From contig NZ_CP019699.1 of assembly GCF_002005165.1 (NCBI RefSeq), positions 3,038,001 through 3,102,000 of the forward strand: a stretch of 64,000 nt of DNA, read 5' to 3'. Origin of the DNA: Novibacillus thermophilus. Its GTDB lineage: Bacteria > Bacillota > Bacilli > Thermoactinomycetales > Novibacillaceae. Below, piece after piece: positions 28,321 through 37,697 of this stretch; within the stretch, counting starts at the first letter, position 1, and each line of letters opens with the position of its first letter. The notes below the pieces were generated by a model, which saw only the letters and a list, made by a program, of their open reading frames with translations, made no database searches and was not told the DNA's origin. The translations under genes and the position numbers were made by a program.

Positions 28321-28602
28321 CTAGCCAACCCAGTGGTCGACTGAGAGCACTTCTAACTCGTGTTCTCCGTCCAGCACTTTGAGGGCAAAATTCAGCTCCC
28401 GCTCTACTTGCTTTTTTGTATTAGCGACAACGCCCATCCCGATCGTGGCCAACTGCTGGTGGTCTTGCATATCCACTTCGGCAATGGACACGTTGTACCG
28501 GTTTTTGATGCGTGTGATGACACTTTTGATGACACGTCTCTTGTCTTTTAACGAAGTAGAGGCCGGAACTCGGCAGTGGCAGGTCATCGTTCCGATAATC
28601 AT
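28321..28602 (-). CDS. ylxP: YlxP family protein (DUF503)
   Basis: The 93-residue protein has the DUF503 features [19 protein letters not shown] and [17 protein letters not shown]. Its function is not settled; it always sits between infB and rbfA and has been linked to ribosome biogenesis. ATG 28602 overlaps the infB stop by four bases (ATGA), so it is translationally coupled. Confidence 0.92.
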
Positions 28603-30854
28603 TTTTTCCCAGTCGTGACTGAGGGCTTGATTTCTTCCATCACGTAAACTTCGATGACATCGCCCTCTTTCACGTCGTTAAAGTTTTCCAACGTGATGCC
28701 GCATTCGTATCCCTGCGCTACTTCTTTGGCGTCGTCCTTAAACCGTTTCAAGCTGTCGATTTTCCCTTCGTACGTGACGACACCGTCCCGTATGACACGG
28801 GCTAACCCGTCGCGCCTGATCTTTCCGTCGGTCACATAGCAACCGGCAATCGTCCCGACGCTCGACACTTTAAACGTCTGGCGAACTTCTGCGTGGCCGA
28901 TCACGGCCTCTTGGTATTCGGGATCTAACAACCCGGTCATCGCCTGCTCCATCTCTTCAATCGCATCGTAAATGATGCGGTGCAGGCGAATGTCTACTTT
29001 TTCCGCTTCCGCCGTCGCCCGGGCGTTCGGTTCAGGTCTTACGTTAAAGCCGATGATGATCGCATTGGAGGCTGAAGCGAGAATGACGTCAGATTCTGTA
29101 ATGGCTCCGACTCCGGTGTGAATGATGTTGACCTTGACGCCTTCTACATCAATTTTTTCCAGTGCCCCGCGCAAAGCTTCAACAGACCCTTGCACGTCCG
29201 CTTTAATGATCAGCGGCAATTCCCGGACGTCTCCTTCTTGTATCTGTTTAAACAGGTCATCAAGGGACACCCGGCTGTTCTCACCCCGATTCGCTTCCCG
29301 TTGTTTGGCCTCCCGCGCTTCCGCAATGGAACGGGCTTTCTTCTCGTCCTCAAAGACCATGAAAGCATCACCGGCATTGGGGACATCACTCAGTCCCAAC
29401 ACTTCCACCGGGGTTGACGGGCCAGCTTGTTTGACGCGGCGACCGCGGTCGTTGACCATGGCACGCACTTTTCCGAAGTAGTTTCCGGCCACGAGGGCGT
29501 CCCCCACATTCAAGGTGCCGTGTTGGACGAGAACGGTCGCGACCGGGCCTCGCCCCTTATCCAGTTCGGCTTCAATGACTGTGCCGCGAGCCCGTTTATT
29601 GGGATTGCTTTTCAGTTCCTGCACTTCGGCAACGAGCAGAATCATTTCCAGCAGGTCGTCAATCCCCTCTCCTTTTAACGCCGAAATCGGGACGAAAATC
29701 GTGTCACCGCCCCACTCCTCCGGCACGAGCTCGTACTCCGTCAACTCCTGTTTCACACGGTCCGGGTTTGCCTCCGGTTTATCGATTTTATTGACTGCGA
29801 CGATGATGGGGACGTCGGCCGCTTTCGCGTGGTTGATCGCTTCAACTGTCTGCGGCATGACTCCGTCGTCGGCTGCCACGACTAAAATGGTAATATCCGT
29901 CACTTGAGCCCCTCGGGCACGCATCGTGGTGAAAGCTTCGTGCCCCGGTGTGTCAAGGAACGTAATTCGTTTGCCGTTCGCCTCTACTTGGTAGGCGCCG
30001 ATGTGCTGGGTGATGCCACCCATTTCTCCTGCCGTCACTTTCGAGTGGCGAATCGAGTCTAAAAGCGTCGTCTTCCCGTGGTCGACATGGCCCATAATGG
30101 TGACGACTGGGGGCCGTTCTTTCAAATCTTCCGGGGCGTCGTGTTCTTCAATTTCTTCGAATGCCTCTTCGTTGACAACGACTTTTTCTTCAACTTCTAC
30201 GCCGTAATCGTCGGCCAAGAGGGTGACAGTGTCCCCATCGAGCTCCTGGTTAATCGTCGCCATCACACCGAGCGACATGAGTTTTTTAATCAGCTCAGAC
30301 GGTTCACGATTTAACATGTTGGCCAGTTCGGCGACTGTCGGGCTGCCTTCGATTTCAATTTTTTCCGGCAGCGGTTTAGGGGCTGGTTTTCCTTTGGCCG
30401 AGGCTGGTTGATGCCCTCTTTTTCCGCCCTTTTTCCCGGCTCCCTTCTTTTCATTCCTGGCGCTTTTTTCTGACGCTTTTACTTGCGCATTACCCTTTTT
30501 CCCTTGTGGGTGGCGGGATCTCGCTTTAGAGGGCTTTCCTTTAGACGCGTGTTCTTTGCGTTCGCGCCGATGACTTTTGGCGTCAGCCTTTTGACTGGAA
30601 CCGTTGCTTTTTTTCCCTTTGGCACGCGCTGTGTGCTGCTGTTTACCGCGAGTCTGTCCTTGGCTCTCAGACTGTTTTTGGGCGGCTTTTTCCTTTACGT
30701 TTTTGAAAAACTGTTCCACTTGTTGGATCATGTCATCGTTCATCACACTCATGTGATTGCTAACTTTTATATCCAGCCGCTTTAATATCGTCAAAATTTC
30801 TTTGCTGCTCATGTTCAGTTGTTTCGCGTATTCATATACCCGCAACTTTGCCAC
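28599..30854 (-). CDS. infB: Translation initiation factor IF-2
   Basis: IF-2 places fMet-tRNA on the 30S subunit and drives subunit joining. The 751-residue protein has an N-terminal IF2N helix bundle ([19 protein letters not shown]), a long Lys/Ala/Gly-rich linker (about 60-160), then the GTPase with [19 protein letters not shown] and NKIDK, and the C-terminal domains II-IV. GTG 30854 was chosen because it lies eight bases after GGAGG; TTG 30869 overlaps the box. It is followed by ylxP with a four-base overlap. Confidence 0.98.
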
Positions 30855-30877
30855 AAGCTTCACCTCCAAAAGTACGA

Positions 30878-31171
30878 TTAAGACAATTTCAACAATTGAT
30901 TGGCAAATCCGTTATCCGTTACAGCTACGGCGACACGCTCCCCCTTACCGATCGCGTGACCGAGCGTCGCCCGATCGAACGAGGTGACGACGGGAACGCC
31001 GTAGTAACGCGCTTTGTCTGAAAGGGACTTTTTGGTGTTCTTCCCCGCATCAGTCGCGATGAACACGAGAGAAGCCTGACCGCGGCGGATCGCCTGTAAA
31101 ACTCTCTCTTCCCCTGTCACGACACATCCTGCCCGCATCGCCAGACCGAGCAATTGGGTGGCCCGATTCAA
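30878..31171 (-). CDS. ylxQ: L7Ae-family RNA-binding protein YlxQ
   Basis: YlxQ (97 residues) belongs to the L7Ae/L30e family, which binds kink-turn RNAs. The segment [23 protein letters not shown] and the YYGVPVV turn are typical. It begins with TTG shortly after the ylxR stop, using AAGGAA that overlaps the ylxR end. Its target RNA is unknown here. Confidence 0.93.
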
Positions 31172-31174
31172 CTG

Positions 31175-31447
31175 TCAGATTCCTTTCGTAAGCTCTTGTT
31201 CGAGGCGCTCGTATATGTCGTCGTTCACTTCCATTTTAAAAGCGCGGTTAAACGCCTTTTGCTTTCGCGCTTTTTGCAAACAGGAAACGTCTGGACAAAT
31301 GTAAGCGCCGCGACCAGACTTTTTGCCTGTCGGGTCGAAAACGATGTCGTGTTCAGGTGTTCGGACGATGCGCAACAAAGATTTTTTTTCCTTTTGTTCT
31401 TGGCAACCGACGCACTGGCGAAGGGGTATTTTTCGTCGTTTTCGCAT
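31175..31447 (-). CDS. ylxR: YlxR family nucleoid/RNA-binding protein
   Basis: The 90-residue basic protein has the YlxR signature RQCVGCQEQKEKKSLLRIVR and GRGAYICPD. Members were crystallised from Streptococcus and suggested to bind RNA; in some Bacilli YlxR/RnpM is reported to modulate RNase P. ATG 31447 follows TTGGAGGAG and starts MRKRRKIPLRQ; the longer TTG frame would cover the ribosome site. Confidence 0.93.
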   Translation of the reverse strand: MRKRRKIPLRQCVGCQEQKEKKSLLRIVRTPEHDIVFDPTGKKSGRGAYICPDVSCLQKARKQKAFNRAFKMEVNDDIYERLEQELTKGI

Positions 31448-31501
31448 AGCCAACTCCTCCAACTGCTCAAAAGTTCGCTTCTCTCATCAACCTCTTTCAC
31501 A

Positions 31502-32614
31502 TTACGACTCAATCTGTTCGCCTTCAATTTCGTCTTCAATGTCAGGAGAAGACTCTGCCGCGCCTTCGACTGCATCGTCTCGCTCCGCTTCTGATTCGCT
31601 CTTGATGTCTATTTTCCACCCTGTCAGCTTGGCAGCGAGACGTGCGTTTTGTCCTTCTTTCCCAATGGCGAGGGACAGTTGATAGTCGGGAACCACGACA
31701 TTCGCCACTTTACTTTCTTCGTCCACATCTACGTGCACGACTTTGGACGGGCTCAGAGCGTTGGCTACATAAACTTCCGGGTCCTCAGACCAGCGAACAA
31801 TGTCAATTTTTTCCCCTTTGAGTTCATTCACGACGGTCTGTACGCGCATCCCTTTCGGACCGACACAGGCGCCGACGGGATCGACGTCTTCTTCCCGCGA
31901 ATGAACGGCGATTTTCGACCGGTACCCCGCCTCCCGCGAGACCGATTTAATTTCGACAATACCATCATAAATCTCCGGTACTTCCAATTCAAATAGCCGT
32001 TTCAAAAGTCCGGGATGCGTCCGGGAAACAAAGATTTGAGGCCCTTTTGTCGTTTTTTCGACTTTCGTAATGTACGTTTTGACTCGGTCGTGCTGTTTAA
32101 ACCGCTCGGTCGGCATTTTCTCGTTCACAGGGAGCAAGGCTTCTGCTTTCCCCAGATTAATATAATAAAAGCGACTGTCTTGCCTTTGAACAGTTCCTGT
32201 GACGATGTCTTCTTCCCGGTCAATGTACTCTTCATAAATGATGCTGCGCTCTGCTTCACGTATGCGCTGGGTCACGACCTGCTTCGCCGTCTGCGCGGCA
32301 ATGCGTCCGAAATCGCGCGGTGTCACCTCAATTTCCGCAATGTCGTTCAGTTGATAGGCTGAGCTCAGCTCCGAGGCAGCGGCCAGCGAGATTTCCATGC
32401 GCGGGTCCACGACGTCCTCGACGACTGTCTTCCGGGCGAAGACCCGCACTTCGCCTGTTTCGCGGTCGATATCGACGCGTGCATTTTGTGCAGAGTTAAA
32501 GTTGCGCTTGTACGCAGAGATCAGGGCCTGTTCAATCGCTTCGAGCAGAACGTCTTTGCTGATCCCTTTTTCCTTTTCCAACTCGGTCAGCGCGTCCATA
32601 AACTCTGTATTCAT
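31502..32614 (-). CDS. nusA: Transcription termination/antitermination factor NusA
   Basis: NusA (370 residues) binds RNA polymerase and nascent RNA and promotes pausing and intrinsic termination. Domains are the N-terminal polymerase-binding part (1-125), S1 (about 135-200), KH1 (VDPVGACVGPKGMRVQTV) and KH2 (LAIGKEGQNARLA). The acidic tail is short and lacks the C-terminal AR repeats of E. coli, as in B. subtilis. ATG 32614 follows GGGGGAGATGTTG. A leader hairpin upstream of rimP may be its autoregulatory target. Confidence 0.97.
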   Translation of the reverse strand: MNTEFMDALTELEKEKGISKDVLLEAIEQALISAYKRNFNSAQNARVDIDRETGEVRVFARKTVVEDVVDPRMEISLAAASELSSAYQLNDIAEIEVTPRDFGRIAAQTAKQVVTQRIREAERSIIYEEYIDREEDIVTGTVQRQDSRFYYINLGKAEALLPVNEKMPTERFKQHDRVKTYITKVEKTTKGPQIFVSRTHPGLLKRLFELEVPEIYDGIVEIKSVSREAGYRSKIAVHSREEDVDPVGACVGPKGMRVQTVVNELKGEKIDIVRWSEDPEVYVANALSPSKVVHVDVDEESKVANVVVPDYQLSLAIGKEGQNARLAAKLTGWKIDIKSESEAERDDAVEGAAESSPDIEDEIEGEQIES

Positions 32615-32657
32615 CAACATCTCCCCCGTGCAGTAGTGATCAAAAACGCATGTCTGT

Positions 32658-33116
32658 TTAGAACAGGATCGCTAAACGTGCCTTCGCCACTTGGTCGAGT
32701 GGGATCTCCGTCAGCTTACCGTCCGCTTCGACGACAACATGTGTCCCGGTGTAGTCGGTCAACTTTCCTTCAAACACTTTCTGCCCTTGCACAGGCGCGT
32801 ACGTCGTCACGTGTACATGGCGTCCGATGGCGCGCCTGAAATCCCGTTCGTTTTTTAACGGGCGCTCGGCGCCGGGCGAAGACACTTCCAAAAAATACGA
32901 TTCCGCAATGGGGTCCGCTTCGTCCAGCTTTTTGCTCAACTGCTCACTGACCCGCTCACAGTCAGCAATGTCTACGCCGTCTTCTTTGTCGACAAAGAGA
33001 CGCAAAAAACGGTGGTTTCCTTCCTTTTTGTATTCAATGTCGACCAGTTCCATCTGTTCATTATGCAATATCGGCTGTGCCAGCTGTTCAACGACTTCAG
33101 TAATTTTGCGATTCAA
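32658..33116 (-). CDS. rimP: Ribosome maturation factor RimP
   Basis: RimP (152 residues, YlxS in B. subtilis) assists 30S maturation. Typical segments are MELVDIEYKKEGNHRFLRLFVDKEDGVD, ESYFLEVSSPGAERPLK and FEGKLTDY. The start is TTG at 33116, eight bases after AGGAGGG. It is the first gene of the nusA-infB operon and lies about 170 bases behind the promoter at 33292-33320. Confidence 0.96.
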   Translation of the reverse strand: MNRKITEVVEQLAQPILHNEQMELVDIEYKKEGNHRFLRLFVDKEDGVDIADCERVSEQLSKKLDEADPIAESYFLEVSSPGAERPLKNERDFRRAIGRHVHVTTYAPVQGQKVFEGKLTDYTGTHVVVEADGKLTEIPLDQVAKARLAILF

Positions 33117-33225
33117 TCGGCTACCCTCCTACTCTGTTCGTCCATTCTTCCATTTGCACCCCTGTGTCGAATGGCATCGTATGTCGCGATGGCTGCAGTT
33201 GACACCGTGAATATTAGGCCTGCAT

Positions 33226-33260
33226 TTAAAACGGAAAGAGTGGGGCGGCCCCACTCTTTC
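33226..33260 (-). terminator. Hairpin in the rimP-nusA leader, candidate NusA-dependent attenuator
   Basis: A perfect 12-bp stem GAAAGAGTGGGG (33234-33245) with CCCCACTCTTTC (33249-33260) and a three-base loop is followed on the minus strand by CGTTTTAAATG. It is downstream of a strong promoter and upstream of rimP, so it lies inside the operon leader. The U-tract is displaced and short, which is typical of weak, NusA-dependent terminators. B. subtilis nusA is reported to be autoregulated at such a leader terminator. Confidence 0.75.
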
Positions 33261-33291
33261 AATCGTCGCACATCATAGTATTGCCGAAAAC

Positions 33292-33320
33292 ATTATAGCA
33301 TAAACGTCGAGACCCGGCAA
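33292..33320 (-). promoter_or_regulatory. Strong promoter of the rimP-nusA-infB operon
   Basis: On the minus strand TTGCCG (33315-33320), 17 bases, and a perfect TATAAT (33292-33297) with extended TGC. Transcription would begin near 33285, about 170 bases before rimP. Confidence 0.75.
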
Positions 33321-33398: not shown

Positions 33399-36300
33399 CT
33401 AAAAAAGCGACAGCTGATTCGACAGGGGCAGCCCTTCCAAGCAACCGTGCTCTTCCAACGTCTCCATCACATTTCGGGAAGCGCGGCTTCGCTGTTGCAA
33501 ATCTTCCACTGAAAGAAATTCTCCTTCTTCCCGGGCCTTGACAATGTTTTGAGCTGCAGAAACGCCTACTCCTGCAATGGCGGAGAACGGGGGCAACAGG
33601 GAATTGCCGTCCACGAGAAACTTGGCCGCATCGGATCGGTACAGATCGACGTTGGAAAACGTAAAACCGCGAGCTGTCATCTCACGCGCCAATTCTAAAA
33701 TCGTCAACAAGTTTTTTTCCTTCGGAGAGGCGTCCAGCCCTTTTTTCTCGATCCGTTCGATTTCTTCATGGATGGCGTCGTAACCCCTCACCGCCACCTC
33801 GACATCGAAATCGTCGGCACGGACGGTAAAGTACGCTGCATAAAACTCGATCGGATAGTACACTTTGAAGTATGCGATGCGTACGGCCATCATCACGTAA
33901 GCGGCCGCGTGAGCCTTTGGGAACATATACTTGATTTTGAGACACGACTCGATGTACCACTCGGGTACGCTGTGCTCTCGCATCGCCTCTTTCCACTCCG
34001 GCTTTAGACCGCGTCCTTTTCGCACGCTCTCCATAATGTTGAAGGCAAGACTCGGTTCCATCCCTTTGTGGATCAAATAAGTCATAATGTCGTCTCGCGT
34101 TGAAATCACTTCTGACAGCTGGGCCGTGTTGGAGCGTATCAGTTCTTGGGCGTTGTTCAACCAGACGTCTGTCCCGTGGGACAACCCGGAGATCTGCACC
34201 AGTTCGGCAAACGTGTTCGGACGAGTATCTTCGAGCATTTGCCGCACAAACCGGGTCCCGAACTCCGGAATGCCCAGTGTCCCCGTGTTCGAACCGATTT
34301 CATCCGGTGTCACGCCCAGGCTGTCTGTCGAGCGAAACAGTTCCATCACTTTCGGGTCGTTTAACGGAATCTGTTTCGGATCAACCCCGGTTAAATCTTG
34401 CAACATGCGGATCACGGTAGGATCATCGTGGCCGAGGATGTCCAATTTCAACAAGTTGTCATGGATAGAGTGAAAATCGTAGTGGGTCGTGCGCCACTTG
34501 GACTGCTTGTCGTCTGCCGGATACTGAATGGGGCAGAAGTCGTAAATTTCCATGTCGTCAGGGACGACGATAATCCCTCCCGGATGCTGTCCCGTCGTCC
34601 GCTTCACTCCTGTGCAGCCGCTCGCCAAACGGCTGACTTCTGCATTGCGCCACGAGTGGCCGAATTGTTCCGCGTACTTCTTGACAAAGCCGAAGGCCGT
34701 CTTTTCTGCCACGGTACTGATCGTCCCCGCCCGAAAGACGTGATCTTCCCCAAACAACTCTTTTGTGTATTCGTGGGCAATCGGTTGATATTCTCCGGAG
34801 AAGTTTAAATCGATGTCCGGCACTTTGTCCCCTTTAAATCCGAGAAACGTTTCAAACGGAATGTCCTGGCCCTCCCCGATCATGTCGTGGCCGCAGTCAG
34901 GACACGCTTTCGCCTCGAGGTCGAACCCGCTGCCGATTTCCCCTTTTGTAAACCACTCGCTTTTCTTACAATGGGGGCATAAGTAATGCGGCGGCAGGGG
35001 GTTGACTTCCGTAATGTTCAACATCGTCGCCACAAAGGAAGACCCGACCGAACCGCGGCTGCCGACCAAATACCCGTCATCCAACGACTTTTTGACGAGC
35101 TTTTGCGCGATTAAGTAAATGACGGCAAAACCGTGGGAAATGATGCTGTTCAGCTCTTTCTCCAACCGCTTCTCCACAATGTCCGGCAACGGGTCACCGT
35201 AAATCTCTTTCGCTTTAGCGTAGCTCATCTCTCGAATGTCATCTTCAGCTCCTTCAATTTTCGGCGTGTACAGGTCGTCCGGTATGATTTCCAACTCTTC
35301 AAACTGCTCGACCAGTGCATTGGGCTGGGTCACGACGACGTCCAGCGCCTTTTCTTCCCCTAGGTATTTAAAGGCTTCCAGCATTTCGTCAGTCGTCCTG
35401 AAGTGAACGTCCGGCTTGCGCTGTTTTTTCAACGGGCTGAACCCGGTGATGCCGTGGATGAGCATCTCGCGATAACGTTTGTCCTCCGGGTCCAGGTAAT
35501 GGACATTGCCCGTAGCGATGACCGGCTTGTTCAACTTTTCGCCAATTTTTACAATTTTTCTGTTCGCCTCTTTGAGACGTTCTTCGCTCTCCACCACCTG
35601 CTTGTCCACTAAGTGCAAATGAATGTCGCTCGGCTGAATTTCCAGCACGTCGTAAAACTCAGCCACTTCCTCCGCTTCTTCCAAACTTTTGTTCAGCACC
35701 GTCTCAAACAGCTCGCCTTTTTCGCATCCGGAACATATGAGCAAGCCGTCCCGGTACTCGTCCAGTTTGCTCTTCGGTATGCGGGGCACGCGGTGGAAGT
35801 ACTCCGTGTGCGCTAAGGAGACGAGTTTGTACAAGTTCTTTTTTCCTGTTTCGTTTTTGGCGTAAATCGTGCAGTGGAACGGGCGGGCGTTTTGCACGTC
35901 TTGTCCCACAAAATCGTTCAGCCTGTGCAAGTGCGTTATCTTTTTCTCCACAGCGTCGTTCAACATGTGGAACAAGATGTACCCCGTCGCCTCTGAATCG
36001 TCCACCGCTCTGTGGTGGTTTTCCAGAGACACGTTAAATTTGGCAGCCAACGTATTCAAGCGGTGGTTTTTTAAATTCGGGTACAGGAGGCGAGCTAGTT
36101 CCAGTGTGTCCAGCACTGGATTCTCCAGTTTTGGAACTCCCGCACGCTGGCAACCGGCGTGCAAAAACCCCATGTCAAAGCGGGCATTGTGTGCGACGAG
36201 CACCGCATCGCCGACGAATTCGGTGAATTCACGGATCACATCTTCCAGTTCCGGGGCGTTTTCCACCATCTCTTGTGTAATGTTTGTCAACTTTTGAATG

Positions 36301-37697
36301 TGCTCCGGTATCGGCTGGTGGGGATTGACGAACGTTTCGAAACGGTCCACCACTTTCCCGTCCTTCATCTTGACACCGGCTAATTCTATGATGGTATTGT
36401 CCACGACAGACAGACCGGTCGTCTCGACGTCAAACACGACGTACTCCGACTCCTTAAGCGGTCGAGGTTCCGGACGGACGACGATGGGAACAGCGTCGTT
36501 GACGACGTTGGCCTCGACCCCGTAAAGCACTTTGATCCCGTATTTTTTGGATGCGTAGTACACATCGGGAAAAGCTTGCACCACGTCGTGATCGGTGATG
36601 GCGACCGCCCTGTGTCCCCATTCGGCCGCCCGCTCCACCAACTTCTCCGGTCGACACAGACCGTCCATGGCGCTCATCGTCGTGTGGGCGTGCCACTCGA
36701 CCCGCTTGTCCGGTGCCGTATCCAGACGCTTTGTGAGAAGCGGGTCGATTTGTTCTAAGTCGTTGGCCATGATCACCAGTTCCCGGGCAAACGTGTCATG
36801 TTGCACACTGCCGCGCACTTTCACCCACATGCCATCTTTTACGAAAGAAGCTAGATGTGCGTCTTCTTTTTCCCGAATAAACAACTTTACTTGAATGGAG
36901 TCGGTGTAATCGGTCAAATTAAAGAGGAGCAGGGTTCTCCCGCTGCGCAGTTCGCGCAATTCCGTGCGGAACACTTCCCCTTGCACGGTCATCCGCCGCT
37001 CTTCTTCAGAAATCGACTGGATCGGGACCGGCTCGTCATCAATCTCGTATCCGATCGCGATTTTAGAAACGGCACTCCCTTCGCCCTCTTCTTTCCTCGC
37101 AGTCTCACGCTGTTTAAGGGCTTCTTCTACTAACTGTTGCTCTTCTTCCTGTTTTTGTGCTTCGTACCGCTGCTCTATGTCCAAAGACACCTCTTCCGAT
37201 TGAAAAAAAACGCGAATCGTCTGACTCGCCACGCGTCGAAAATATGTCGTCACAAGCTCGTCGACCTTTTTTTTCCGGGCCATCTCTATCGCTGGTCCGT
37301 GGACGTAAAGGGTCACGTAATCCCCTTCTACTTTGCGCCTTGCCTTCTCCAAAACTCTCGCTGCGTAAGTTGAAGCCTCGGCGACGTGCTGGACAAGGTC
37401 CTCCCAGTACTCTTCAATTAACGTTTCAGTATGTACCTTTTTCTCATAGTGGATAACGATTCGGGTGTCGGCAATGTGACGGAAACACGCTTGAATGCGA
37501 TGGGTTAACTGCCGGTACGCCTGTAGGGAGATCATGGCCGGAAAACACAGGTGGAGCGTCCACGTCTTCGCCCGTCTCGCCACTTCCACTTTTTCGATGT
37601 ACCCGTGACCTACTGTCCCTTTCACGATTTCATCTGGAAGTTCTGCTCGCCGCACCAACAGGTTGAACCGTTCTCTTTTTTCTTCTACTGTGCTCAT
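33399..37697 (-). CDS. polC: DNA polymerase III alpha subunit, Gram-positive type PolC
   Basis: PolC (1432 residues) is the essential leading-strand replicase with built-in proofreading. In order: N-terminal tau-binding part, OB domain (about 235-330), PHP domain beginning EWHAHTTMSAMDG, inserted DnaQ-type 3'-5' exonuclease with VFDVETTGL and AHNARFDMGF, PHP second half, then palm, thumb and fingers with the zinc CPHCKK/CPDCGHD motif, DIDLNFSGEYQP (catalytic aspartates) and HPGGIIVVP. ATG 37697 follows GGAGTGA by seven bases. A weak promoter (TGT TAAAAT at 37733-37738) precedes it. The usual neighbour proS is missing; an SDR gene takes its place. Confidence 0.98.
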   Translation of the reverse strand: MSTVEEKRERFNLLVRRAELPDEIVKGTVGHGYIEKVEVARRAKTWTLHLCFPAMISLQAYRQLTHRIQACFRHIADTRIVIHYEKKVHTETLIEEYWEDLVQHVAEASTYAARVLEKARRKVEGDYVTLYVHGPAIEMARKKKVDELVTTYFRRVASQTIRVFFQSEEVSLDIEQRYEAQKQEEEQQLVEEALKQRETARKEEGEGSAVSKIAIGYEIDDEPVPIQSISEEERRMTVQGEVFRTELRELRSGRTLLLFNLTDYTDSIQVKLFIREKEDAHLASFVKDGMWVKVRGSVQHDTFARELVIMANDLEQIDPLLTKRLDTAPDKRVEWHAHTTMSAMDGLCRPEKLVERAAEWGHRAVAITDHDVVQAFPDVYYASKKYGIKVLYGVEANVVNDAVPIVVRPEPRPLKESEYVVFDVETTGLSVVDNTIIELAGVKMKDGKVVDRFETFVNPHQPIPEHIQKLTNITQEMVENAPELEDVIREFTEFVGDAVLVAHNARFDMGFLHAGCQRAGVPKLENPVLDTLELARLLYPNLKNHRLNTLAAKFNVSLENHHRAVDDSEATGYILFHMLNDAVEKKITHLHRLNDFVGQDVQNARPFHCTIYAKNETGKKNLYKLVSLAHTEYFHRVPRIPKSKLDEYRDGLLICSGCEKGELFETVLNKSLEEAEEVAEFYDVLEIQPSDIHLHLVDKQVVESEERLKEANRKIVKIGEKLNKPVIATGNVHYLDPEDKRYREMLIHGITGFSPLKKQRKPDVHFRTTDEMLEAFKYLGEEKALDVVVTQPNALVEQFEELEIIPDDLYTPKIEGAEDDIREMSYAKAKEIYGDPLPDIVEKRLEKELNSIISHGFAVIYLIAQKLVKKSLDDGYLVGSRGSVGSSFVATMLNITEVNPLPPHYLCPHCKKSEWFTKGEIGSGFDLEAKACPDCGHDMIGEGQDIPFETFLGFKGDKVPDIDLNFSGEYQPIAHEYTKELFGEDHVFRAGTISTVAEKTAFGFVKKYAEQFGHSWRNAEVSRLASGCTGVKRTTGQHPGGIIVVPDDMEIYDFCPIQYPADDKQSKWRTTHYDFHSIHDNLLKLDILGHDDPTVIRMLQDLTGVDPKQIPLNDPKVMELFRSTDSLGVTPDEIGSNTGTLGIPEFGTRFVRQMLEDTRPNTFAELVQISGLSHGTDVWLNNAQELIRSNTAQLSEVISTRDDIMTYLIHKGMEPSLAFNIMESVRKGRGLKPEWKEAMREHSVPEWYIESCLKIKYMFPKAHAAAYVMMAVRIAYFKVYYPIEFYAAYFTVRADDFDVEVAVRGYDAIHEEIERIEKKGLDASPKEKNLLTILELAREMTARGFTFSNVDLYRSDAAKFLVDGNSLLPPFSAIAGVGVSAAQNIVKAREEGEFLSVEDLQQRSRASRNVMETLEEHGCLEGLPLSNQLSLF

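Follow-up and report, generated by a model that had tools for sequence, protein, structure and literature searches.

A conserved hairpin in the rimP-nusA-infB leader of Novibacillus thermophilus as a probable NusA-tuned attenuator

In the Novibacillus thermophilus chromosome, a promoter and a terminator-like hairpin lie one after the other in the gap between polC and rimP, and this arrangement raises the question of whether the hairpin ends the transcription of the genes behind it or controls the genes ahead of it and, in the latter case, which factor reads it. This question was addressed in a window of 64,000 nucleotides (the whole stretch of DNA analysed; contig NZ_CP019699.1), in related genomes and in genomes of other phyla. 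Herein, we propose that the hairpin attenuates transcription of the rimP-nusA-infB operon close to its promoter and is tuned to NusA, a reading to which we assign a probability of roughly three in four. Published work is cited for the parts of each paper that were available.

Layout of the leader and its published relatives

The features of the locus, all on the minus strand, are as follows.
33399..37697, minus strand: polC, the upstream gene (open reading frames and Pfam)
33292..33320, minus strand: sigma-A-type promoter TTGCCG-17-TATAAT with a TG-extended -10 (sequence and promoter scan; position in relatives)
33234..33260, minus strand: putative leader terminator hairpin of 12 bp with the loop CCG, containing AAAGAGTGGG / CCCACTCTTT (sequence, scan, fold, conservation, model score)
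33228..33231, minus strand: short displaced T-tract TTTT, 2 nt past the 12-bp stem (sequence; tails of relatives)
33124..33130, minus strand: rimP ribosome-binding site AGGAGGG (by eye)
32658..33116, minus strand: rimP, with a TTG start at 33116, the first gene past the leader (PF02576, PF17384)
31502..32620, minus strand: nusA, probably both the client of the hairpin and the source of its regulator (PF08529, PF13184, PF00575; locus association)
31175..31462, minus strand: ylxR, probable operon member (PF04296; operon from gene order)
30878..31171, minus strand: L7Ae-family gene, probable operon member (PF01248; operon from gene order)
28599..30869, minus strand: infB, probable operon member (PF11987, PF00009; operon from gene order)

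The Pfam gene order is polC, rimP, nusA, ylxR, the L7Ae-family gene, infB and a DUF503 gene, and judged by this order the hairpin sits in the predicted 5' UTR of the rimP-nusA-infB operon. The promoter, with its first hexamer TTGCCG at 33320-33315, its second, TATAAT, at 33297-33292 and a 17-nt spacer, is exactly, to the base, the one named in the initial annotation of this DNA; it has 10 of 12 matches and is the top of 8 promoter-like sites in the surrounding 8.5 kb (4.5 expected). Transcription is predicted to start near 33285, approximately 25 nt ahead of the hairpin. The stem GAAAGAGTGGGG(CCG)CCCCACTCTTTC at 33260-33234 consists of 12 perfect pairs and is the longest of the 8 terminator-like stems listed, and sequence and scan agree with the same annotation on both the perfect stem and its distance from the start. 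Terminator-like sites were not enriched as a class around the leader (8 observed in the 8.5 kb versus 12.9 expected in shuffles), and thus it is the pair of promoter and hairpin that stands out rather than the class of site; between the polC stop and the promoter, the scan lists no terminator-like site on this strand. Directly 3' of the 12-bp stem lies CGTTTTAAATG, and the U-tract of the window runs as a CG spacer, four T and then AAA, i.e. a suboptimal or interrupted tract. The T-stretch 3' of the stem (CGTTTTAAAT) is indeed short and displaced, as had been proposed from the sequence, and rimP does begin 118 nt past the hairpin.

The predicted 64-nt leader folds with -23.2 kcal/mol (z -3.77; 1 of 200 shuffles equally good), and the whole 169-nt leader is not unusually stable (z -1.27). 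No competing antiterminator fold was seen in the predicted 64-nt leader, and the approximately 25 nt preceding the hairpin leave little room for an aptamer or an antiterminator. The motif AAGAGTGGGN{3,7}CCCACTCTT occurs once in the window versus 0 in 100 shuffles, and AGAGTGGGN{3,8}CCCRCTCT occurs once in the 3.63 Mb genome. The covariance model gives the window hairpin 39.7 bits; the weaker matches that it gives in this genome, with E of 0.027 or worse, fall on other hairpins, and none of the seven window proteins searched has a match near them. Rfam 15 gave 0 matches at the gathering score in the window, and the two sub-threshold matches (E up to 10), one to the model of a plant microRNA and a weak one to DUF805b, were taken as chance.

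Leaders of this design have been described. The name rimP-leader comes from Naville and Gautheret 2010 (PMC2965389), who placed rimP at the top of their ranking of attenuated genes, noted a conserved GGGc..gCCC stem and regarded NusA as the best candidate regulator. The window hairpin resembles this element in its place in the 5' UTR of rimP-nusA-infB, its G-rich 5' arm, its C-rich 3' arm and the GGGc(...)gCCC signature, present as GGGGCCGCCCC; the leader likewise has a T-stretch, no antiterminator and a terminator-to-rimP gap inside the 4-130 nt range of the rimP-leader definition. It is a deeply conserved member of this known kind of attenuator. Compared with the available parts of that paper, the conserved stretch is longer here (AAAGAGUGGG/CCCACUCUUU), which may be visible in its logos or supplementary lists, the majority of U-tracts are interrupted, and genomes in which no RimP match is detected also have the element, before nusA. 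The autoregulation of B. subtilis NusA by termination in the leader of its operon, mentioned in the initial annotation, is stated in a 2025 review (PMC12288461, citing Mondal et al. 2016, in the part available), and the NusA-stimulated intrinsic termination described there, which controls transcription into nusA, resembles what is proposed for the window leader, the likeness being one of description rather than of hairpin sequence. In S. agalactiae, RNA-seq of the rimP-nusA leader revealed short and long transcripts from one start, with an early end at the predicted terminator, 31 nt past the start versus the approximately 60 nt predicted in the window, and NusA feedback was proposed (PMC4448216, available part). 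The E. coli metY-rimP-nusA-infB leader, for which NusA feedback is cited in the available parts of PMC2965389 and PMC4448216, also has a hairpin with a GGGC/GCCC core before rimP; unlike that of the window, it has no AAGAGU/ACUCUU extension and carries a T7 tract.

Conservation and covariation of the stem

RimP was found in 59 of 61 relatives and in 79 of 81 phylum-wide genomes, of which two repeat earlier genomes, leaving 77; with these two repeats (L206, L207) dropped, the leader set numbers 136, with 127 distinct. A hairpin of the rimP-leader type was observed in 136 of the 136 rimP leaders examined, in 132 by motif register and in 4 as pairing-preserving variants. Thus, the earlier suggestion that the attenuator hairpin is conserved in this lineage holds throughout these Bacillota leaders, and the conservation extends well beyond the lineage. 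The four leaders missed by the register (G057, G045, G128, G085) carry, by eye, a hairpin at the same place; three of them show a change in the core with pairing kept (e.g. GUAGG/CCUAC, GUGAG/CUCAC), and the fourth keeps GUGG with changed lower pairs. The core GUGGG/CCCRC is present in 132 of 132 register leaders, the invariance of the top three pairs being built in because the register demanded GGG and CCC, whereas GU/RC was not demanded. The full 18 nt AAGAGTGGG/CCCACTCTT are exact in 77 of these 132. Among the 127 distinct leaders, 120 have U-A and 7 have U-G at pair 4, all have G-C at pair 5, 125 have A-U at pair 6, and at pair 7 there are 117 with G-C and 8 with A-U; further down, the unpaired cells increase from 2 at pair 8 to 11 at pair 9 and 29 at pair 10. 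The loops are variable, with a GGG-to-CCC spacing of 4-12 nt and GNRA in 14 of 27 four-nt loops. A stem conserved in form but variable in sequence had been anticipated among related rimP leaders, and this expectation failed, since the relatives keep the sequence of the stem as well.

One copy of the motif per genome is the rule, observed in 53 of 56 pattern-bearing relatives; G025 and G026 have one more match each, and G036 has a second full copy. By our own estimate, approximately 1 match is expected by chance over the 61 genomes, and a backwards control pattern gave 1 match, in G042. The two hairpin copies of G036 (L263, G036:C4:85000-91500) lie at 573 and 4838, approximately 4.3 kb apart and with similar flanks; frames resembling a glycosyltransferase, a methyltransferase and an IS3-type integrase were seen by eye between them, and no PolC match was detected in this stretch. 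The arrangement would fit the entry of a cassette at the leader.

The constraint on the stem was also visible as covariation. The alignment (A1) comprised 104 of 109 picked sequences, five longer-loop sequences, one of the four variants among them, being left out; 28 of the 57 class leaders in register were offered, and the 3' side of one variant (L031) is out of alignment by a single base. In A1, 96.0% of cells pair and both-side changes occur in 6 of 10 pairs; none of 500 shuffles reached the observed pairing or covariation score (a count and not a probability), and the alignment slid out of register pairs in 34-66% of cells. A slide of +2 gave 39 both-side-changed cells versus 27 in the structure, and a slide of +3 drew level with the structure in further pair types (16). 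The structure nevertheless exceeded every slide in the share of cells paired, in the covariation score and in the number of pairs changed on both sides. RNAalifold recovers the same helix from A1, G-U and U-G pairs are tolerated in the stem, and the lower pairs covary. Taken together, the pairing, the covariation and the recovered helix indicate that the stem is an RNA helix with a sequence constrained beyond pairing.

The 100 nt upstream of the stem were scanned for promoters in 131 of the 132 register leaders, with shuffles keeping dinucleotides where the path closed and otherwise single bases. A promoter matching 9 or more of the 12 positions was present in 97 leaders, versus 15% of the shuffles and 2 of the 112 stretches taken as controls 320-420 nt upstream. 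Among these 97 promoters, 84 have a TG extension, and in 87 the distance from the end of the -10 to the stem is 20-50 nt. In the 11 nt past the ninth pair, 97 of 126 leaders have no T-run longer than 3 and 29 have a run of 4 or more, and the T-run of 4 in the window is therefore among the longer ones. The group is thus characterized by a predicted start a few tens of nt ahead of the hairpin and by a poor U-tract. A weak tract behind a good stem had been put forward as the expected layout, and this describes the group well, though the window's own tract is among the stronger.

The gene that the hairpin accompanies

To which gene does this element belong? When named genomes were scanned for exact copies of the 18-nt palindrome, at least 117 loci were obtained, which are a sample of the carriers and not a census. 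Among the matches listed, the motif is followed at 18-351 nt by a RimP match in 104 of 117, and a NusA match is present as well in 99 of the 104 listed loci. The other 13 listed include L083 (Atribacteria) and L088 (Planctomycetota), directly before nusA; L098, just downstream of polC at a tile end; L147 and L151, at tile ends; and eight loci with no rimP, nusA or polC match, of which L070 shows a partial InfB-like match approximately 1.1 kb off. PolC lies just upstream in 42 of the 99 testable loci listed, and in 57 no PolC was detected by tblastn within 700 nt upstream. The motif also precedes rimP and nusA in a Fusobacterium bin (L126) and in a further bin from Atribacteria (L172).

In the whole bins of L083 and L088, no RimP match was found. 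In G038, a relative of the same order, the hairpin GGAGTGGG..CCCACTCT lies approximately 270 nt upstream of nusA, no RimP match was found in the genome, and a RimP profile finds none in its nusA locus. The distance from hairpin to nusA in this locus (L270, 1203-1492) makes a long leader. G069 likewise has no RimP match in the genome or, with the profile, in the nusA locus, and its nusA is without the motif; in G134 (84% complete), neither RimP, NusA nor the motif was found.

The exact pattern was observed in 9 of 61 Nitrospirota-labelled genomes (the phylum of L089), in all 9 upstream of rimP-nusA, and in 5 of 59 Planctomycetota-labelled genomes (the phylum of L088), in all 5 directly before nusA; it was absent from the other 52 and 54, respectively. 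These five Planctomycetota loci have no RimP match in the locus, the genome-wide RimP check covering G142 alone, and the evidence from this phylum lies in position (5 of 5 before nusA) and not in the count, because a backwards control matched 5 times in 4 genomes. With the covariance model at E up to 0.01, 13 of 59 Planctomycetota genomes were matched, in 11 of the 13 less than 200 nt before nusA; in L303, the match ends approximately 21 nt before the NusA match, and the matches of G232 and G217 lie away from nusA. G232 holds two strong model matches (L306, L315; the AAAGTGGG and AAGAGTGAG hairpins) in loci without a NusA match. From the named loci, the genomes without RimP and the Planctomycetota counts, the element tracks nusA more faithfully than polC or rimP, and it is apparently with nusA itself that the hairpin belongs. 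In the open-licence literature, no paper was found that describes the element ahead of nusA in genomes without rimP, and this comparative result is the part of the present study that adds to the print found.

Rival readings and a possible mechanism

Another view is that the hairpin merely ends transcription of polC and the genes preceding it, as an ordinary intrinsic terminator, and has no regulatory role for rimP-nusA. The gap between polC and rimP does hold a strong hairpin with some U-tract, the scan shows no other terminator-like site from the polC stop to rimP on that strand, and polC is the upstream neighbor in the 42 loci mentioned above. We nevertheless regard this view as unlikely and disfavour it: the hairpin lies downstream of the promoter, an objection already raised in the initial annotation and strengthened by the conserved position of the promoter in relatives; the motif occurs at the 57 testable loci listed without a detected PolC and ahead of nusA in genomes that gave no RimP match; most leaders have a weak tract; and no such conserved motif was seen in other 5' or 3' terminators, according to the available part of PMC2965389. 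The attenuator may also be the same and the sensed factor not NusA alone, with RimP, NusG or another RNA-binding protein setting termination, which has a small but real chance of being correct. The conserved sequence suggests a specific reader, RimP feedback was also considered in PMC2965389, and NusG stimulates termination at similar interrupted tracts (PMC8060035, both in the parts available). However, three genomes that gave no RimP match (G038 and the Atribacteria and Planctomycetota bins) keep the hairpin ahead of nusA, which argues against RimP as a general sensor, and NusG is not among the identified genes of the operon. Mimicry of rRNA, with RimP as the sensor, was tried and rejected, as AGAGTGGG and CCCACTCT are absent from the 16S bodies of the four rrn loci; a search of each 16S with approximately 1.5 kb on either side gave one match, upstream of one 16S.

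All four rrn loci (L180-L183) carry TGTTCCTTGAAAACT, a CCTT variant of what we take to be a boxA-like element, upstream of 16S and before 23S; boxA in Firmicutes usually has CTTT where TGTTCCTTGAAAACT has CCTT. The 3' arm CCCRCUCUUU might itself be read as a boxA-like NusB-S10 site that places the leader under the Nus antitermination complex, since RCUCUUU resembles the gamma-proteobacterial boxA GYTCTTTAANA (Baniulyte et al., PMC5725501, available part) and exact GCTCTT occurs in the arm of 5 of 127 distinct leaders. This reading was rejected as highly improbable because the rrn element of the same genome differs from the arm and matches it poorly and the E. coli rimP hairpin is without CTCTTT; moreover, the motif sits in a stem and not in single-stranded RNA. 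Baniulyte et al. searched for boxA upstream of genes, and the Nus-factor genes with boxA in the available part of that paper are suhB, rpsJ and nusB (via ribH), with no others reported there; no paper on boxA, rimP and NusB together was found in the open-licence literature. A near-perfect, usually single-copy palindrome with a conserved sequence, a short distance downstream of the -10, could also suggest a DNA operator bound by a repressor. This too is disfavoured and has very little probability, as a GGG-CCC spacing of 4-12 nt would alter the spacing and phase of the half-sites, G-U and U-G pairs are tolerated, GNRA makes up about half of the tetraloops, and a T-rich tail follows the stem on the 3' side.

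The attenuator interpretation as a whole, advanced in the initial annotation, is thus upheld by the hairpin downstream of a promoter of conserved position, its presence in 136 of 136 leaders, the tracking with nusA and the published leader terminators of other Firmicutes. According to the available part of PMC8060035, NusA helps termination at suboptimal hairpins and/or suboptimal U-tracts. The window hairpin, with its 12 perfect pairs and -23.2 kcal/mol, is not suboptimal, which is not required for NusA-helped termination, since that paper gives a suboptimal U-tract as the alternative; the strong stem together with the T-run of 4 also makes factor-independent termination possible. In the mechanism that we propose, RNA polymerase would start approximately 25 nt before the hairpin and, after approximately 60 nt, would meet a strong hairpin with a short displaced U-tract, a terminator that probably needs help. 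With enough NusA bound to the polymerase, pausing and hairpin formation would be favoured, transcription would terminate and little NusA would be made; when NusA is scarce, the polymerase would read on into the operon. In other words, the hairpin may report how often the polymerase carries NusA on arrival, and it should also stop part of any read-through from polC. Since NusA is reported to stimulate approximately 75% of B. subtilis terminators (PMC12288461, available part), its specific control of its own operon is a fair question. The conserved stem, above all GUGGG/CCCAC, suggests that the sequence of the hairpin is recognized too, with NusA as the most likely reader. This role of NusA is our conjecture, for which its S1-KH domains would be the natural candidates.

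We tentatively hypothesize, with somewhat less than even confidence, that the element is an ancient, sequence-read NusA sensor belonging to nusA and not to rimP, with a GUGGG/CCCAC core and a deliberately poor U-tract, placed a few tens of nt from the start so as to gauge the speed of NusA acquisition after the promoter, and kept with nusA in at least five phyla (by label, Bacillota, Nitrospirota, Planctomycetota, Atribacteria and Fusobacteria, several represented by metagenome bins), including genomes without rimP. The combination of a conserved stem sequence, a variable loop and a poor U-tract points to a specific reader, testable by a few base-pair swaps. Moreover, the retention of the hairpin before nusA in the absence of rimP suggests that nusA is the client and NusA the likely sensor, which the name "rimP-leader" obscures.
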